A DNA stretch of 63,266 nucleotides from a virus. The stretch spans positions 1 through 63,266 of the IMG/VR virus record IMGVR_UViG_3300045970_000244; one strand, 5' to 3'. This document shows, in pieces, positions 38,746 to 45,190 of the stretch (positions are counted from its first letter, which is position 1; each line of letters begins with the position of its first letter). The notes beneath the pieces are model-generated. The model had not been told where the DNA came from and ran no database searches. It was given only the letters and a program-made list of their open reading frames with translations. A program made the position numbers and the translations under genes.

Positions 38746-38987
38746 CGACACGCTGCCCTGTTCCCAGAGAGCGTGCAAAATTGTTTTCTATCGACAAACT
38801 CATAATCTACCTTTTGCTCGCCAGTGCCTTGGCCGACCCACACAAACAAGCCGCTTTGTTTCGTTGAGGAAAGGTTTCGCTTATTTTTTACAGAAAAAAA
38901 AGGTTTTTTTTTGGCCAACGCCATTTTTTTTTCAAAGTCACAAATACAGCTTGCACTCCGATGGCTTACGGACGTAAGTTTTTTTGC

Positions 38988-39602
38988 ATGGAAGCCATAA
39001 AAGCAGAGAAAATCAAAATCGTGCCCCTGAAAGACCTCAAACCCAACCCGTTGAACCGCAACAAGCACCCGCCCGAGCAAATCGTCAGACTTATAGAGAT
39101 AATTCGCTACCAAGGGTTCCGCAACCCCATCGTCGTGAGCAACCGTTCCGGCTTGGTCGTGACTGGCCACGGTCGTCTGGAAGCCGCTAGGGCCATGGGT
39201 CTTGAGCGAGTGCCGGTGATTTTTCAGGACTACGAGGACGAGGATCAGGAGTACGCCCACGCCATCAGCGACAACGCCATCAGCATGTGGGCCGAGCTGG
39301 ACACAGCCGGAATCAACGAAGACCTCGCGCGCATGGGCCGCGAGTTCAGCCTTGAGCAGCTTGGTATGCGCAGTTTTACACAGGAGATCCCCGGGATGCC
39401 CGGCGGCGGCCACTCAGAGCTCCGCGACGACCTTCCGAATGTTGACATCCAAGGGTCCGTGAACAACCGCACTGAAATTTTGGTCATCACGTTTGCCGAC
39501 CCCGAAAAATACGCTGAGGTGCAACGCCAGTTGGGGCTCCGGCCCACACAACGCACCATCACCTATACCGAAATCGTCGACAAGTGGGAGCTGCCGACAT
39601 GA
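38988..39602 (+). CDS. ParB/Srx-domain protein 1 (204 aa), start of hypermodification cluster
   Basis: The sequence KIVPLKDLKPNPLNRNKHP, VRLIEIIRYQGFRNPIVVSN and LVVTGHGRLEAARAMGL is a ParB/sulfiredoxin-fold domain with the GHGR active-site-like motif. I choose the ATG at 38988; nine codons upstream are also open. The C-terminal part (ITFADPEKYAEVQRQL) resembles the tails of ParB proteins found with phage DNA-modification genes. Its stop overlaps the radical SAM start (ATGA). Exact role unknown; a target-site or nuclease/ATPase function is inferred. Confidence 0.85.
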   Translation: MEAIKAEKIKIVPLKDLKPNPLNRNKHPPEQIVRLIEIIRYQGFRNPIVVSNRSGLVVTGHGRLEAARAMGLERVPVIFQDYEDEDQEYAHAISDNAISMWAELDTAGINEDLARMGREFSLEQLGMRSFTQEIPGMPGGGHSELRDDLPNVDIQGSVNNRTEILVITFADPEKYAEVQRQLGLRPTQRTITYTEIVDKWELPT

Positions 39603-40864
39603 GCGAGTACATGAGCCCGCGTTGGAGCGGTGAGGTAAGCGATTGCTCCATGCCTATGACTTTCGATACTTACGACCGCTGCACCTACGGGTGCCTGTAC
39701 TGCTTTGCGGTTTACCAGAAAATCAACAGCAAGGGCCCGAACTACTGGCTTGAGCAGCCTGACTTCGTGAACCCCGAACGCATCAAGGCGATGTTCCGGC
39801 TTGAAAAACCCACACAGTTCGAGAAGTACATCCGCGACCGGATGACCATGCAGTGGGGCGGCATGGCTGACCAGTTCGACGAGAACGAGCGCGAGCACGG
39901 CGTCACGCTGGAGCTCCTGAAGTTCTTCCGGGAGATCAAGTACCCGATCTGTTTTTCGACCAAGGCGACGTGGTTCACCAAGGACGACCGCTACATGTCG
40001 CTCATCAAGGACGCCGACCACTTCAACTTCAAGTTCAGTATTATCAACCTCGACCCGGTGCGGGCCGCCGTCATGGAGGAGCGCGTGGATTCCCCACAGG
40101 AACGCCTCGCGGCCATGAAGCGCCTGAACGACATCAACCCCAAGGGAGGCGTCACCCTCAGACTGCGGCCGTTCATCATCGGCCACACTGACCGGCGCGA
40201 CGAGTACCTTGACCTGATCCGTGCGGCGCACGCCTCTGGCGCGTCGGCCGTGACTACGGAGTTCTACTGTGTTGAGGCCCGACTGAAACCCTCTGAGCGG
40301 TGGCGCTACAACCGTGTGTCCGAGCTCTGCGGGTTCGACGTGTTCGAGTTCTACCAGAAGCACAGCACCGGCTCCGGCTACATGAGGCTCAATTATGAAG
40401 TCAAGAGGCCTTACGTCGACAAGATGAAGGCCCTCTGCGACCAACTCGGGATGCGCTTTTACGTCAGCGATGCCCACCACAAAGAGAAGTGCTCGAACGG
40501 CTCCTGCTGTGGCCTTCCTCCGTCATGGAATTACTCACGAGGCCAGTTCACCGAGGCCCTGCTGATCGCCAAAGAGAAGGGAACCGTGCGCTGGTCTGAC
40601 ATCAGCGGCAAGATGGACCACCTCAAGCAGATCAATTACGCCCGGGCCGAGGGCTTCAATACGGCGAACGTCATGAACCGAGCCACGCGCGGCCGGCAAA
40701 CCCTGTACGATTATTTGCAAGAAATCTGGAACACGCCGAACAACCTGAAGTCACCGTACAAGTACTTCGGCGGAATCATGAACCCAACGGGCACGGACGA
40801 AAATGGCGACGTGATTTACGAGTACCGGCCTAAGCCCTGTCCTTCATCAACTCAGCCAGAATAA
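39599..40864 (+). CDS. Radical SAM enzyme (421 aa)
   Basis: C28-x3-C32-x2-C35 (DRCTYGCLYCFAVY) is the iron-sulfur cluster motif, with surroundings like the spore photoproduct lyase branch (TYDRCTYGC). A second Cys group (EKCSNGSCCGLP, near residue 300) could hold another cluster or ligand. In known thymidine hypermodification pathways, radical SAM isomerases rearrange the amino acid attached to the base. Its end overlaps the end of the opposing kinase gene by 35 bases. Confidence 0.88.
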   Translation: MSEYMSPRWSGEVSDCSMPMTFDTYDRCTYGCLYCFAVYQKINSKGPNYWLEQPDFVNPERIKAMFRLEKPTQFEKYIRDRMTMQWGGMADQFDENEREHGVTLELLKFFREIKYPICFSTKATWFTKDDRYMSLIKDADHFNFKFSIINLDPVRAAVMEERVDSPQERLAAMKRLNDINPKGGVTLRLRPFIIGHTDRRDEYLDLIRAAHASGASAVTTEFYCVEARLKPSERWRYNRVSELCGFDVFEFYQKHSTGSGYMRLNYEVKRPYVDKMKALCDQLGMRFYVSDAHHKEKCSNGSCCGLPPSWNYSRGQFTEALLIAKEKGTVRWSDISGKMDHLKQINYARAEGFNTANVMNRATRGRQTLYDYLQEIWNTPNNLKSPYKYFGGIMNPTGTDENGDVIYEYRPKPCPSSTQPE

Positions 40865-41384
40865 ACCCCGCCGCGTTACTGATGTCCGCCTGACACTCGT
40901 TGGTGAGCTGGTGGACGTCTTCAGGGTTCAAGTTTTTCTTGATGTTGGAGATCTTCGTTTTGCGCCCCTTGAGAAAGGTTTCGGTCTGGGTATCGTTCCG
41001 GGCTTTGTGGCGCGCGGCTTTGGTTTCTTCCGTGCACTCCAACACGAACACCTTGATATCCAGTCTTTCGGCACACCAGCTTAGAAAGCTCAGATTGCCG
41101 AGCCGGTCTCCTTCAAAGAAGATGTTCCACTCGCGCGAATTGAATATGAGCTGGTCGATGTAGAGCTGCACCTGCGGCTGGGCCGCCATGCTGAACTTGT
41201 CCGTGCCGCAAAACGTGTCGCCGTCGTTGTAGAACCCGAGAACGATGATCTTCTCGTCCATGTGTTTCGTTCCGTGAACCAAGCCGCTCTTGAAGGGCAT
41301 CCCGGGCGATAACCGGCGCATCATCTCGCGTACGATGGTTGTTTTACCGGAGGCGGGCTCACCAATCATAGCAACAATTTTCAT
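40830..41384 (-). CDS. P-loop kinase, candidate 5-hydroxymethyl-dU DNA kinase (184 aa)
   Basis: The Walker A is G-x4-GKT (GEPASGKTT, residues 8-16), followed by a small nucleotide-kinase fold (NIFFEGDRLGNLSFLSWCAE, VFVLECTEETKAARHKAR). It directly follows the aGPT-Pplase-like gene (ATGA overlap), the usual arrangement in phage hypermodification loci, where this kinase phosphorylates 5-hmdU in DNA. The match to that kinase group is by context and motif, not by search. Confidence 0.8.
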   Translation of the reverse strand: MKIVAMIGEPASGKTTIVREMMRRLSPGMPFKSGLVHGTKHMDEKIIVLGFYNDGDTFCGTDKFSMAAQPQVQLYIDQLIFNSREWNIFFEGDRLGNLSFLSWCAERLDIKVFVLECTEETKAARHKARNDTQTETFLKGRKTKISNIKKNLNPEDVHQLTNECQADISNAAGFILAELMKDRA

Positions 41385-42520
41385 GTGTCAATCTCCTTGT
41401 TGAAGTCGTTTTCAAAACAGGGCCAGTCCCGGTGCATCATGATGACTTGCCCGGTCAGGCGATAGTGGTTCTGTTTGCGTGGGACCAAACCCGGGTCGCG
41501 CGGGTTGTCCTCAATCCGAAGGTGCGGCGGTAAGTACCAGCGGCGCGCGTCCCAGAACAGGCTGAAGTCCTCAGCGCCGGCCCAAGCCTCCTCGGCGGTC
41601 TTTATCCGGTTGTAAAACATGTCCATGTAGACGTTCGGGTACCGGCGGTTTTCGCGGTGCCAGCTCTTGTAACAGCACAGGGTTGATTCCAGCGTGAAGT
41701 ACCCGACGTCGCGCTCATCGATGTCCGGGTTGCCGGTCAGGCGCATTCGCGCGGCGTTCAGGAGCAGGTGCCCCTCGGCCTTGAGCCAGTCGATGATCTC
41801 TTTGTTGTAACCACGGAAGGCCGGATTCAGCGTGTCGTGCCAGTCGAGGTCGTCGCGGCCGTTGACCTTACACAGCCCGTTACGGTGAGACTTTGAGCCG
41901 TCGATGTCGTCCAGAAAGAGTTGGTCGCAGTCGATGTTCAGGCCCATGATGCGCAAGTACTCAAGATAGGAAAACGTCGAGAGCCGGCCGAACAACTCGA
42001 ACCCCATGACGTGCCGCCACACACGGCGGAAGTTCTCGTCCTCGTCGGCGGTGTTTGCGAGCTCGCCCTCGAATAATTCTGTTTGACTTTTGCCGCGCAA
42101 GTTCAGCTTGTAGCTCATCACACACTTCTCAAATTGGTTCTTGACATAGCGGCGGTCAGTGTCCCACCCGAGCTTTGGGTAATTCTCACGGAACCAGCGC
42201 GAGAGCTTGTCGATGTTCAGCACCTTGAAGTCAGGGAACCGCTTGAAGATCGTCCAAGTGGTGACGGCGTGCTGGCACAGCCCGTTGATGTACGCGAACC
42301 AGTACCGCTGCTCCTTGTCGAGTTTCTGCGTCTCCACGATGTACGGCATCATCTGGTACACGGCGCCCGGGTGAGATCGGTACTTCAGGTGGAACTCGTA
42401 AAAACGTAAGAACGTCTCTCTTCGGTACTCTGGGAGGCGAAAGTCCATCCCCTTCTCAAGTTCCGTGACCTCGTGCGGGGCGCCACGTCCGGCGCTGTGA
42501 GGGCTACTTTGGTTGAACAT
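41381..42520 (-). CDS. aGPT-Pplase / amino acid:DNA transferase-like helical protein (379 aa)
   Basis: Long helical pattern with FLRFYEFHLKYRSHPGAVY, RYWFAYINGLCQHAVTTWTIF, SYLEYLRIMGLNIDCDQLF and TLCCYKSWHRENRRYPNVYMD. This matches the alpha-glutamyl/putrescinyl thymine pyrophosphorylase / 5-hmdU kinase helical family. In known systems this protein swaps the pyrophosphate on 5-hmdU for an amino group donor. I choose the ATG at 42520, inside the end of the PLP gene. Confidence 0.8.
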   Translation of the reverse strand: MFNQSSPHSAGRGAPHEVTELEKGMDFRLPEYRRETFLRFYEFHLKYRSHPGAVYQMMPYIVETQKLDKEQRYWFAYINGLCQHAVTTWTIFKRFPDFKVLNIDKLSRWFRENYPKLGWDTDRRYVKNQFEKCVMSYKLNLRGKSQTELFEGELANTADEDENFRRVWRHVMGFELFGRLSTFSYLEYLRIMGLNIDCDQLFLDDIDGSKSHRNGLCKVNGRDDLDWHDTLNPAFRGYNKEIIDWLKAEGHLLLNAARMRLTGNPDIDERDVGYFTLESTLCCYKSWHRENRRYPNVYMDMFYNRIKTAEEAWAGAEDFSLFWDARRWYLPPHLRIEDNPRDPGLVPRKQNHYRLTGQVIMMHRDWPCFENDFNKEIDT

Positions 42521-43601
42521 ATTCGTTGATCCTCGTAGGGAAGGCACCAAGCCTCGGAGCAAGCAGGGCACGCATGTTCTCGGCGCGGGGTTTGGACCCG
42601 ACGATCCAGAACACGCTTTTGTGGTTGAGGAGGGCCGGAAGTTTTTCGCAGACGTAGGTCATCATTTTGCCTTCATACGTCGGGTGAAACTCGATCCCCT
42701 TGTAGGAAAACGGCACCTCGGTCTGGTAGTCGACGTACCCAGTGGTGTGCAGGTCATGGTGGATCAGCTCGTAAAGGGGCTCGTCCACGGTGGCTTCATA
42801 CTCAGATTGCACGTCAGGGTGTGAAATATAGTCGCGCTTGAACAGCCGGGTCGGGAGGCCCGCCACCCGCGAGATGATCTCAAGGCGCTCCTCGATCAAC
42901 TGGAGCTTGGGCGGCCCGATGCCGATCAGGTACACGCGTTTCAGGTTCTTCGGCCGAAAGCGCGCGAGCCCGTAAAGAATGCTCACCGTCGAATTGCATG
43001 AGCCAGACGGGATGACCAGAGTTTCCATGTCGTCAGGCAGGTTACGAACCTGTTCAGAACCAATGAAGTGAAACCGCTCGATCCGCCCGCCCGGGTGGCT
43101 ATGGTGGTCAAGTGTGATGCCGTACTCAAGGTAAAAGTATTGTGAGAGCTCGGGGTCGGTTTCCTTGAGGTCGCGCACCTTCTTTTGCAGAACGGGGTTG
43201 TAGGCGATGTTCGGGTTGATGGCAAACCGGGCTCCGAACCACGTGGCCATGGCGACGTTCTCGTGCCGGATGGCGGCGTCGGTGTTCGTGGCGCCGATGA
43301 CGTGCAAGCTCTTGAGCCCATAGTGTGCCGCGATTGCCGAGCCCATCGGGAGCTGCGGTGACTTCACGGAGGTGCCGGAGATCATTCCCACGGCGCCGGG
43401 CTCCTTCAGGTACTCGGTCACGAGCCAGATACACTGCCGTAACTTGCTGCCGTTGATGCCGCCGTAGCCCAGAGGAGCGAATTTGTCCTCCCGCTTGAAT
43501 CGGAGGTTGCCAACCCCTTCAACCGGAGTGAGGTCGAAAATACGCTCCTCCCAGCGGGATTCTGAGCGATCAAGACTGAGTGTCTGGAAGATTGTTTCCA
43601 C
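42504..43601 (-). CDS. Fold-type-II PLP-dependent enzyme, ACC deaminase/D-cysteine desulfhydrase-like (365 aa)
   Basis: The block FKREDKFAPLGYGGINGSKLRQ places the likely Schiff-base lysine in NGSK, as in the GNKxRKL motif of this family. ISGTSVKSPQL and the phosphate-binding loop PSGSCNSTVS follow in the expected order. I prefer a GTG start at 43601 with GGGAG upstream; a TTG at 43649 is open too. In a modification pathway it would act on the amino acid attached to the base. It overlaps the TET gene. Confidence 0.82.
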   Translation of the reverse strand: METIFQTLSLDRSESRWEERIFDLTPVEGVGNLRFKREDKFAPLGYGGINGSKLRQCIWLVTEYLKEPGAVGMISGTSVKSPQLPMGSAIAAHYGLKSLHVIGATNTDAAIRHENVAMATWFGARFAINPNIAYNPVLQKKVRDLKETDPELSQYFYLEYGITLDHHSHPGGRIERFHFIGSEQVRNLPDDMETLVIPSGSCNSTVSILYGLARFRPKNLKRVYLIGIGPPKLQLIEERLEIISRVAGLPTRLFKRDYISHPDVQSEYEATVDEPLYELIHHDLHTTGYVDYQTEVPFSYKGIEFHPTYEGKMMTYVCEKLPALLNHKSVFWIVGSKPRAENMRALLAPRLGAFPTRINEYVQPK

Positions 43602-44475
43602 ACTTCTCCCAAAGAGGATCGCCGGTTTTGCGGCGCTTGGCTTGCTCAAGCTCCTCTTGCGCAGATTTGCAGCGAATCATGGCCTCGCGATAGTAGTAAA
43701 CGATAGTACAGCGTTGGGCGTCGGGCGTGAGCGGTACGATCTGCGTGTTGCCGTGCCACTCGTGAGGGTCGAACAACAGGAGGTCATAAGTGTCGAGCTT
43801 GACGGCAATTCGCCAGTTGGGCAGCACGAGGTCACCGCCCTTGTAAGCGCCCTGCCTGATGGCCGAGATGCAACTGAACCCTTGGGCGAGGTCACCGGCG
43901 TCTTTGTGGCAAGCCGTTCTGAAGTTCTTGTTCACCGTCATGGTGGTGAAGGCCGTGTCAGGAATCAAGAAGTCAGGGGCCGTCCGCCGTGCGTAGTCCT
44001 TCTGGTACTCGTACCGGTCGGGAACGTGCTCGGCAAAGAGGCGGTCTACCTGTTTGACCATCGGCATCAGGGCGTTGAACTTCTCCGGGTGCTGAAGGTT
44101 CCAAGCACAGGCCCGGCAGTAAGGCATCCTGACGGTGCGCTCAAAATAACCGATGATTCCAGAGTACACGCCCCAACCCTTCGGCACGCGCTGGGTCTGC
44201 GACCGGGTGCCGTCTTTGCGCATCCGGCCCTCGCTCTCAATGCCGGCGGCCGTGCCACGGTTGTCGGAGTTCTCGTAGTACCCGTGAAGCACAGACCATG
44301 CGTTCTGAACCAGCAGCGGTGAGAGGGCTTGTTTCAGGAGTACGGCCAGAGGCGAACCATCGGGGCGCTCGACGCGCGTGGTTTCAGTGAGCAGGACGTC
44401 GTAGTCCCGCTCGTCCACGAACCTCATTCCCCAATCTTCGCTATTGGGCTTTGACGGTAGCCTTATGAGCTTCAC
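43570..44475 (-). CDS. TET/JBP-family 2-oxoglutarate/Fe(II) DNA dioxygenase (301 aa)
   Basis: The core is diagnostic: VNKNFRTACHKDAGD with H190-x-D192, then GAYKGGDLVLP, DLLLFDPHEWHGN with H241 as third iron ligand, and RCTIVYYYRE with R255 as likely 2-oxoglutarate ligand. The length is normal for phage TET/JBP proteins. The first half has ENSDNRGTAAG. It should oxidise the methyl of thymine or 5-methylcytosine in DNA. The GTG start overlaps the ParB2 gene by 35 bases. Confidence 0.9.
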   Translation of the reverse strand: MKLIRLPSKPNSEDWGMRFVDERDYDVLLTETTRVERPDGSPLAVLLKQALSPLLVQNAWSVLHGYYENSDNRGTAAGIESEGRMRKDGTRSQTQRVPKGWGVYSGIIGYFERTVRMPYCRACAWNLQHPEKFNALMPMVKQVDRLFAEHVPDRYEYQKDYARRTAPDFLIPDTAFTTMTVNKNFRTACHKDAGDLAQGFSCISAIRQGAYKGGDLVLPNWRIAVKLDTYDLLLFDPHEWHGNTQIVPLTPDAQRCTIVYYYREAMIRCKSAQEELEQAKRRKTGDPLWEKCGNNLPDTQS

Positions 44476-45190
44476 GCACTATCCCCAACAGAGTGTCCGA
44501 TATATTGTCCGTGCCGCGCACGGTTTGCAACGCTTCGACCATTGAAACGAAGTCCACGTAATCGTCCATCGTGAAAAACAACTGAAGCTGTTTAACCTGC
44601 GTGGAGCCAGAGGCCATAGTTTTTTCTGGCATCATTCCGGTGTTCGGCGAACCGATGTCAGCCGGGGCCGGGATTGATCCGTCTGTCGGCGAAACAAACG
44701 TCGCGGCCAACTGCGAGAAGTCAACCTCCGGGAAGTGAAAGTTGGAAACCATGTCCTCGTAAGGGATGTCGTTCTCGCGCATAAACTGCGCCAACGAATC
44801 CTTGGTCAGTTTGCCGTACTGAGAGGCCGCCGCAAGCACCTTGCGCTTGGCTTCGGCATAGCTTTCGGCTTCGACCACAGCGACCGGGATTTCGGGAATC
44901 GTCCAGCCCTCGATGGCCTTCATCTGGTTCAGGGTGAACACGCGCTGGTGGCCGTCGATGATGAAAAACTTTCCTTTGTCCTTCCAGACGTGGACAACGA
45001 ACGAGAAACCGAAATCGCCGAGCGTCTTACGCAGGGCCTCGTACTCGGTGCGTTCAAGGTGTTTGAGTGAGCCCTGAAACGGCTCTAATTTTTCGAGCGG
45101 GAGGGTCTGGCTGCCCTTCACGGTGATCTCAAGGGTTTTGCCCGCGATTTTACGCCGGGGCGCGCGTTCTTTGGTCGTTTCTGTTGTCAT
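44441..45190 (-). CDS. ParB/Srx-domain protein 2 (249 aa)
   Basis: The sequence LPLEKLEPFQGSLKHLERTE, FVVHVWKDKGKFFIIDGHQR and AVVEAESYAEAKRKVL is a ParB/Srx-like domain with a DGHQR motif. It is the first gene of the leftward modification operon (GAGGAAATCAAC before the ATG). Its sequence is clearly different from ParB 1. The C-terminal LQLFFTMDDYVDFVSMVEAL suggests a strand-helix tail. May target or license the enzymes; unproven. Confidence 0.85.
   Translation of the reverse strand: MTTETTKERAPRRKIAGKTLEITVKGSQTLPLEKLEPFQGSLKHLERTEYEALRKTLGDFGFSFVVHVWKDKGKFFIIDGHQRVFTLNQMKAIEGWTIPEIPVAVVEAESYAEAKRKVLAAASQYGKLTKDSLAQFMRENDIPYEDMVSNFHFPEVDFSQLAATFVSPTDGSIPAPADIGSPNTGMMPEKTMASGSTQVKQLQLFFTMDDYVDFVSMVEALQTVRGTDNISDTLLGIVREAHKATVKAQ

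Follow-up and report, generated by a model that had tools for sequence, protein, structure and literature searches.

The window analysed here is a whole IMG/VR virus record of 63,266 bases (IMGVR_UViG_3300045970_000244), and seven adjacent genes at its positions 38988 to 45190 are predicted to give the phage a complete gene set for adding an amino acid to thymine of its own DNA. Five of these genes form a minus-strand operon that is very probably a thymine hypermodification pathway, started on finished DNA by a dioxygenase of the TET/JBP family. The remaining two, on the plus strand, encode a ParB protein and a radical SAM enzyme (rSAM), a pair that appears to be a second starting unit rather than a late step of the minus operon. 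We give an even chance to the explanation of the whole locus in which an oxygen-dependent and an oxygen-independent starter feed one shared downstream line. The new part of the window is the rSAM; the minus operon itself is of a known type. The seven genes are as follows.

38988 to 39602, plus strand: ParB1, with a ParB/Srx-like N domain (ParB_N 1.5e-7, over the cut-off; phrog_498 3e-31)
39584 to 40864, plus strand: rSAM, with a fold predicted to be like that of spore photoproduct lyase (SPL) (Radical_SAM 4e-7, over the cut-off; CX3CX2C invariant; 19-base overlap with ParB1)
40830 to 41384, minus strand: P-loop kinase of the 5-hydroxymethyldeoxyuridine (5hmdU) DNA kinase kind, Walker A GEPASGKT (linked by profile to gp54 of phage M6)
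41381 to 42520, minus strand: amino acid:DNA transferase (ADDT), also called aGPT-PPlase2 (PF18724 1e-23; phrog_3271 1e-80)
42504 to 43601, minus strand: pyridoxal-phosphate (PLP) enzyme of fold-type II, Lys69 in NGSK (phrog_3650 1e-110)
43570 to 44475, minus strand: TET/JBP 2-oxoglutarate/Fe(II) dioxygenase (TET) (Tet_JBP, PF12851, 1e-19, over the cut-off)
44441 to 45190, minus strand: ParB2, ParB-like (phrog_498 3.5e-11; directly upstream of TET, which it overlaps by 35 bases)

A reading of the DNA made from its letters alone (the sequence-only reading) had described these genes as one seven-gene hypermodification cluster. All seven open reading frames are indeed adjacent and intact, with no interruption, but they are not one operon: the plus-strand pair ParB1-rSAM converges on the minus-strand five, and the 3' ends of the rSAM and kinase genes share 35 bases. 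Transcription order on the minus strand is ParB2, TET, PLP, ADDT and kinase, with stepwise overlaps of 4 to 35 bases. Based on relatives and ribosome-binding sites, we refined the ADDT start to the ATG at 42520 (the mechanical open reading frame extends to 42571) and the PLP start to the GTG at 43601, where relatives start and a GGAG lies upstream, rather than the TTG at 43649, to which the mechanical frame extends. ParB1 has an alternative ATG start further upstream, at 38961. Scans of the sequence for promoters and terminators gave no excess over shuffled sequence.

The predicted identities of four minus-strand enzymes, namely ADDT, TET, the PLP enzyme and a kinase of the 5hmdU type, are upheld both by profile searches and by catalytic residues that do not vary. 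In TET, His190, Asp192, His241 and Arg255 are invariant among 13 relatives, so that the HxD...H iron ligands and the 2-oxoglutarate-binding arginine are present, and a PDB sequence search with the protein leads to TET2 and Naegleria Tet; the same searches gave no match for PLP or ADDT. The kinase falls under the cut-off for every Pfam family (best relevant, Ploopntkinase3, 9e-5) and is not matched by the curated HMUDK model, but a profile built from it draws in M6 gp54 at 6.5e-13, a protein that Pfam places as '5-hmdU DNA kinase' (HMUDK 8e-18). Its conserved residues (G8, G13, K14, G60, D62, E91-G92, R125 and R129, covering Walker A, GxD, EG and two arginines) include those that are invariant in the kinases linked to TET, to thymidylate-synthase-type hydroxymethylases (TS) and to rSAM. 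M6 gp51 matches PF18724, the family of the window ADDT, at 1e-46. Lys69 of the PLP enzyme is invariant; the protein is 44% identical to the PLP protein of Ackermannviridae (ViI-like) phages, with a fold closest to D-cysteine desulfhydrase and 1-aminocyclopropane-1-carboxylate deaminase. ParB2 is recognised through PHROGs and by profile linkage (own profile 3e-85, ParB1 profile 3e-32). The sequence-only reading thus named the TET/JBP protein, kinase, amino acid:DNA transferase, PLP enzyme and rSAM correctly, and the motifs that it noted (HxD...H, Walker A, CX3CX2C and NGSK) are confirmed. Its description of a hypermodification cluster is supported as well.

Two further searches of the window, for a TS (PF00303 absent, no match to the TS profile) and for a cytosine-C5 methylase, were negative, and because of these absences we read the minus operon as a post-replicative, TET-initiated version of the pathway of phages M6 and ViI. 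Pseudomonas phage M6, with 5-(2-aminoethyl)deoxyuridine (5-NedU), and Salmonella phage ViI, with 5-(2-aminoethoxy)methyldeoxyuridine (5-NeOmdU), have an ADDT, a 5hmdU DNA kinase and a fold-type II PLP enzyme, as does the window. They make 5hmdU monophosphate (5hmdUMP) before replication by a TS-like enzyme, whereas the window has TET and lacks this deoxyuridylate hydroxymethylase, so it represents a TET-initiated variant and not an M6/ViI-type member. In M6 and ViI, 5hmdU in DNA is phosphorylated by the 5hmdU DNA kinase and then modified further (PMC6449724). By analogy, this order would carry over to the window, with TET acting on finished DNA to supply 5-hydroxymethyluracil. As the target of the predicted TET oxidation, thymine is favoured by the absence of a C5 methylase from the window.

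Operons of this type are already known, in keeping with the statement of the sequence-only reading that TET/JBP operons of similar style had been predicted computationally: TET-ADDT-kinase operons, many with the same PLP enzyme, are common in viral contigs. With the window PLP as query we found 45 viral loci, most of which pair PLP with TET, commonly in the order TET-PLP-ADDT-kinase, and seven of which have TS; the ADDT as query also found TET-ADDT-kinase operons without PLP. Viral contigs L125-L135 hold the four genes TET-PLP-ADDT-kinase in window order, with PLP proteins 53-64% identical to that of the window, and rSAM was not found in those of their records searched with the rSAM alignment. 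In Rhodococcus phage Tonitrus, ParB, a TET-like protein, aGPT-PPlase2 and a 5-hmU kinase have been described as a thymidine hypermodification system; these four genes are adjacent there and in the window, where PLP is inserted among them (40830-45190), and for Tonitrus neither a PLP enzyme of the window family nor an rSAM is named, the fifth gene being hypothetical (PMC11955845). Mycobacterium phage LilMcDreamy likewise has ParB, TET, ADDT and kinase together, and searches there for a window-family PLP enzyme and for rSAM found neither. In two loci a PLP-type domain appears, from translation by eye, to be fused in frame to the N-terminus of ADDT (L118 6835-9003 and L119 122-2290), which supports a direct functional link between PLP and ADDT. 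Directly after TET, three other loci encode a conserved protein, some 250 residues long, whose sequence has a motif resembling that of Rossmann methyltransferases (L104 2006-2788, L115 2012-2749, L127 2008-2778); the L115 copy has no Pfam match and the L127 copy a weak KsgA-like one.

The plus-strand rSAM has relatives at about 50% identity in at least 141 viral stretches. A tblastn search with it gave no match in 50,697 phage records, and a PDB sequence search only weak chance matches. Cys33, Cys37 and Cys40 of the CX3CX2C motif, which is set in a TIM-barrel-like core, as well as Cys21, Cys229, Cys308 and Cys309, are invariant in 74 sequences. The closest solved fold to its structural model (pLDDT 88) is SPL, at Z 19.9 over 265 residues and 13% identity, the next enzyme reaching Z 16.4. 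SPL is an rSAM enzyme acting on thymine in DNA, but its cysteine set and C-terminal part differ from those of the window protein, it repairs and does not decorate, and the shared fold shows no function by itself. Neighbourhood profiles were run over 103 rSAM loci, made up of the best 80 of the at least 141 viral stretches and 23 loci from bacterial and archaeal genomes; like the TET and TS loci below, these are biased by the searches that seeded them, and because many are short and some near-identical copies, the counts do not represent independent events. A typical operon runs from ParB through either a small ADDT and kinase (often with a GNAT protein) or a glycosyltransferase to rSAM and then terminase. 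ADDT and kinase together accompany rSAM in 51 loci, kinase only in 12 and a glycosyltransferase without ADDT or kinase in 27, with none of these in 13; PLP occurs in 0 of the 103. Eleven glycosyltransferases were aligned, ten of them taken from rSAM loci and the other from a TET locus; nine match PF20691, TAGT or 'TET-Associated Glycosyltransferase'. A phage-encoded SAM synthetase (MetK) lies near rSAM in 33 of the 103 loci (e.g., L027 837-1874). ParB is found upstream of rSAM (within 3.5 kb) in 85 of 88 cases, of TET in 49 of 85 and of TS in 0 of 10, an association like that of TET and unlike that of TS, as expected if rSAM works on DNA. In the open-licence literature we found no account of such a system, whether looking for phage rSAM with ParB or with hydroxymethyluracil.

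Outside the window, TET, TS and rSAM exclude one another. Neither TET nor TS was found in any of the 103 rSAM loci, and rSAM was absent from all 65 TET and all 12 TS loci. Sampling around the kinase, with no selection for a starter, added 79 loci, of which 53 have TET and none has rSAM or TS; the remaining 26 have no starter in view and are mostly short on the upstream side. Whole-record searches agree, within the limit that contigs may be incomplete and that a gene absent from a contig need not be absent from the virus: PF12851 was found in 0 of 44 rSAM records (TET controls 4 of 4 positive), PF00303 in 0 of 44 (one TS control positive), the TET alignment, too divergent for a collection-wide scan, matched 0 of 31 whole rSAM records, and the rSAM alignment matched 0 of 46 TET, PLP or TS records (known carriers 10 of 10 positive). 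The window is the sole sequence in which we saw TET and rSAM together. Catalytic residues of kinase and ADDT are equal across the TET, TS and rSAM groups, so a hydroxymethyl substrate like that of their TET- and TS-linked relatives should also be required by the kinases and ADDTs of rSAM loci, and the only redox enzyme common to the rSAM loci is the rSAM. The family is most simply explained if rSAM stands in for TET or TS, starting the modification on finished DNA independently of oxygen, and is followed by kinase/ADDT or a glycosyltransferase; from these patterns we judge it moderately probable that rSAM is the starting enzyme in its family.

The carriers of this rSAM family come largely from anaerobic settings. 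Named carriers among cellular genomes, nearly all from gut, rumen, cecum, termite or similar sources, include Bacteroides fragilis S82, Prevotella, Phocaeicola, Clostridia, Lachnospiraceae, Selenomonas ruminantium and Methanobrevibacter, the exceptions being a hot-spring Bacteroidetes/Chlorobi and a Patescibacteria metagenome-assembled genome (MAG). TET-bearing isolates infect Pelagibacter, Nonlabens, Caulobacter, Stenotrophomonas, Synechococcus, Methylophilales and actinobacteria, all of them aerobes. Among 295 genomes surveyed from the order to which B. fragilis belongs, there was one true rSAM carrier, the known one (other matches being weak and to different rSAM proteins), and no TET over the cut-off; rSAM is too rare there for this survey to carry weight. 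In the rSAM-ParB systems of anaerobe phages, such as that in the prophage region of B. fragilis S82, the rSAM is about 50-57% identical to that of the window and is accompanied by ParB, kinase and ADDT. These systems lack TET, TS and PLP; in their place there is often either a SAM synthetase with GNAT or a glycosyltransferase of the TAGT-like type. The window shares with them a full-length rSAM, the invariant cysteines and an upstream ParB, but departs from them in having TET.

From the enzyme families, the intact catalytic residues, the gene order, the lack of TS and C5 methylase and the exclusion of starters elsewhere, we infer the following reactions. TET would hydroxylate the methyl group of thymine in finished phage DNA to 5-hydroxymethyluracil, the kinase would then phosphorylate this base, ADDT would put an amino acid in place of the phosphate, and the PLP enzyme would trim the amino-acid adduct, most likely as its ViI relative does. 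ParB1 and rSAM would form a second starting unit, in which rSAM, as an SPL-like enzyme working on pyrimidines of DNA, makes a hydroxymethyl or equivalent activated base without oxygen and its product feeds the same kinase/ADDT/PLP line as that of TET; each ParB presumably keeps its starting enzyme on DNA. TET/JBP enzymes require oxygen, and TS-type hydroxymethylases require folate chemistry before replication. With one aerobic and one anaerobic starter, the phage could protect its DNA in both oxic and anoxic hosts, a pairing comparable to the coexistence of aerobic and anaerobic ribonucleotide reductases in some organisms. The exclusion of TET and TS, the loci with only a glycosyltransferase, the anaerobe carriers and the SPL-like fold argue for an oxygen-independent starter rather than a late-step isomerase. 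That rSAM serves as an alternative starter in the window phage is plausible, at slightly less than an even chance, and somewhat more tentative is the specific chemistry, in which a ParB-loaded rSAM would turn the thymine methyl of polymerised DNA into a hydroxymethyl or equivalent group without oxygen, as an anaerobic counterpart of TET/JBP, with both present in the window phage.

Several points weigh against this two-starter account. We know of no product or activity for any member of the rSAM family, and it would be chemically unusual for an rSAM enzyme to hydroxylate its substrate. Since the window alone has both TET and rSAM, the function of rSAM elsewhere may not carry over to it. Enzymes of this class are oxygen-sensitive, so their occurrence in anaerobes is expected whatever their role. 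M6 gp53, which we take to be the rSAM isomerase of 5-NedU synthesis, is likewise SPL/PA0069-like. The 13 rSAM loci with no known decorating enzyme count against it too, as does the dependence among short or near-duplicate loci. If the account is true, phages of gut and rumen anaerobes start hypermodification with rSAM on finished DNA, a new route to modified DNA that would explain how kinase/ADDT and glycosyltransferase modules work in anaerobes and would predict that gut viromes hold a class of modified DNA not seen so far. As a single phage in which both starters meet one common downstream line, the window offers a natural test case.

One alternative makes the rSAM a late tailoring enzyme as in M6: TET would produce 5-hydroxymethyluracil, kinase and ADDT would add an amino acid, rSAM would isomerise the adduct and PLP would finish it. 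The M6 set gp51-gp54 comprises an ADDT, a PLP enzyme, an SPL-like rSAM and a kinase, all of which the window also has, with TET in place of the M6 TS, and the window rSAM and gp53 share their nearest NCBIfam model (PA0069), hhalign aligning the family with gp53 at 79% over 175 columns of the rSAM core. Kinship is at the level of this core; the window rSAM belongs to another subfamily, and blastp to gp53 returns only short fragments around the cysteine motif. An amino-acid adduct as substrate would be expected to need ADDT, which the 27 glycosyltransferase loci and the 13 loci without partners lack, so that a late isomerase fails to explain them. Furthermore, rSAM occurs in no TET-PLP or TS-PLP locus, the window PLP is of the ViI kind and not the M6 kind, and the rSAM lies on the opposite strand with its own ParB. 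We consider this alternative rather unlikely. The sequence-only reading had proposed such an M6-type isomerase acting after amino-acid transfer, a role with which the partner counts and the lack of PLP at rSAM loci disagree; of its view that all steps follow replication, the post-replicative start stands, given that the window has neither TS nor C5 methylase, and the placing of rSAM as a later step is not supported.

The separate strand and separate ParB could also mean that ParB1-rSAM makes a modification of its own, at another base or site and unrelated to the ADDT line, in which case the phage would have two independent DNA modifications. Two ParB proteins could reflect two site choices, and the nearest relatives of the window rSAM come from two glycosyltransferase-type loci and one ADDT-type locus. 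However, no glycosyltransferase, GNAT or other decorating partner adjoins the rSAM in the window, and the most frequent partners in its family, ADDT and kinase, are already there, which makes a separate modification unlikely. Very unlikely, and kept only as a rival because the window has no C5 methylase, is that TET acts on 5-methylcytosine (5mC), host- or phage-methylated, so that the pathway decorates cytosine: phage TETs with published activity reportedly all act on 5mC, including the systems that Burke et al. are said to have described in 2021 (cited in PMC11404850), and Melnitz phages combine TET and kinase with an HhaI-like methylase, but the ADDT and kinase families of the window are those acting on 5hmdU in M6 and ViI.

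Some rSAM loci depart from the typical operon. L014 (2958-8207) lacks TET and has, one after another, ParB2, a glutamine-amidotransferase-like protein (GATase_6, just below the cut-off), ADDT, GNAT, kinase, rSAM and ParB1; the amidotransferase-like protein may represent an extra tailoring or ammonia-supply step. L031 (4894-5757 and 6932-8167) holds two different rSAMs in one modification locus, the family rSAM and, next to it, another of the SPL/PA0069-like type. L012 (3986-9242) combines rSAM, two ParBs and a glycosyltransferase with kinase-like and sugar-nucleotidyltransferase-like genes, possibly a sugar modification with its own precursor supply. A 77,994-base Clostridia MAG contig carries two ParB-ADDT-kinase-GNAT-rSAM operons (L175 and L176) about 54 kb apart with equal match scores, perhaps a terminal repeat or an assembly duplicate.

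By its structural genes (terminase, portal, major head, tail sheath and baseplate), the window phage is of the contractile-tailed type, and it also encodes RecT and exonuclease VIII. The best nucleotide match among phages covers just 4% of it, so it has no described near relative. In four public records (H23, H24, H42 and H155), phage TET/JBP proteins are labelled SNF2 DNA repair protein or queuine tRNA-ribosyltransferase, and 5-hydroxymethyluracil-type kinases are labelled terminase small subunit, labels that look like misannotations.

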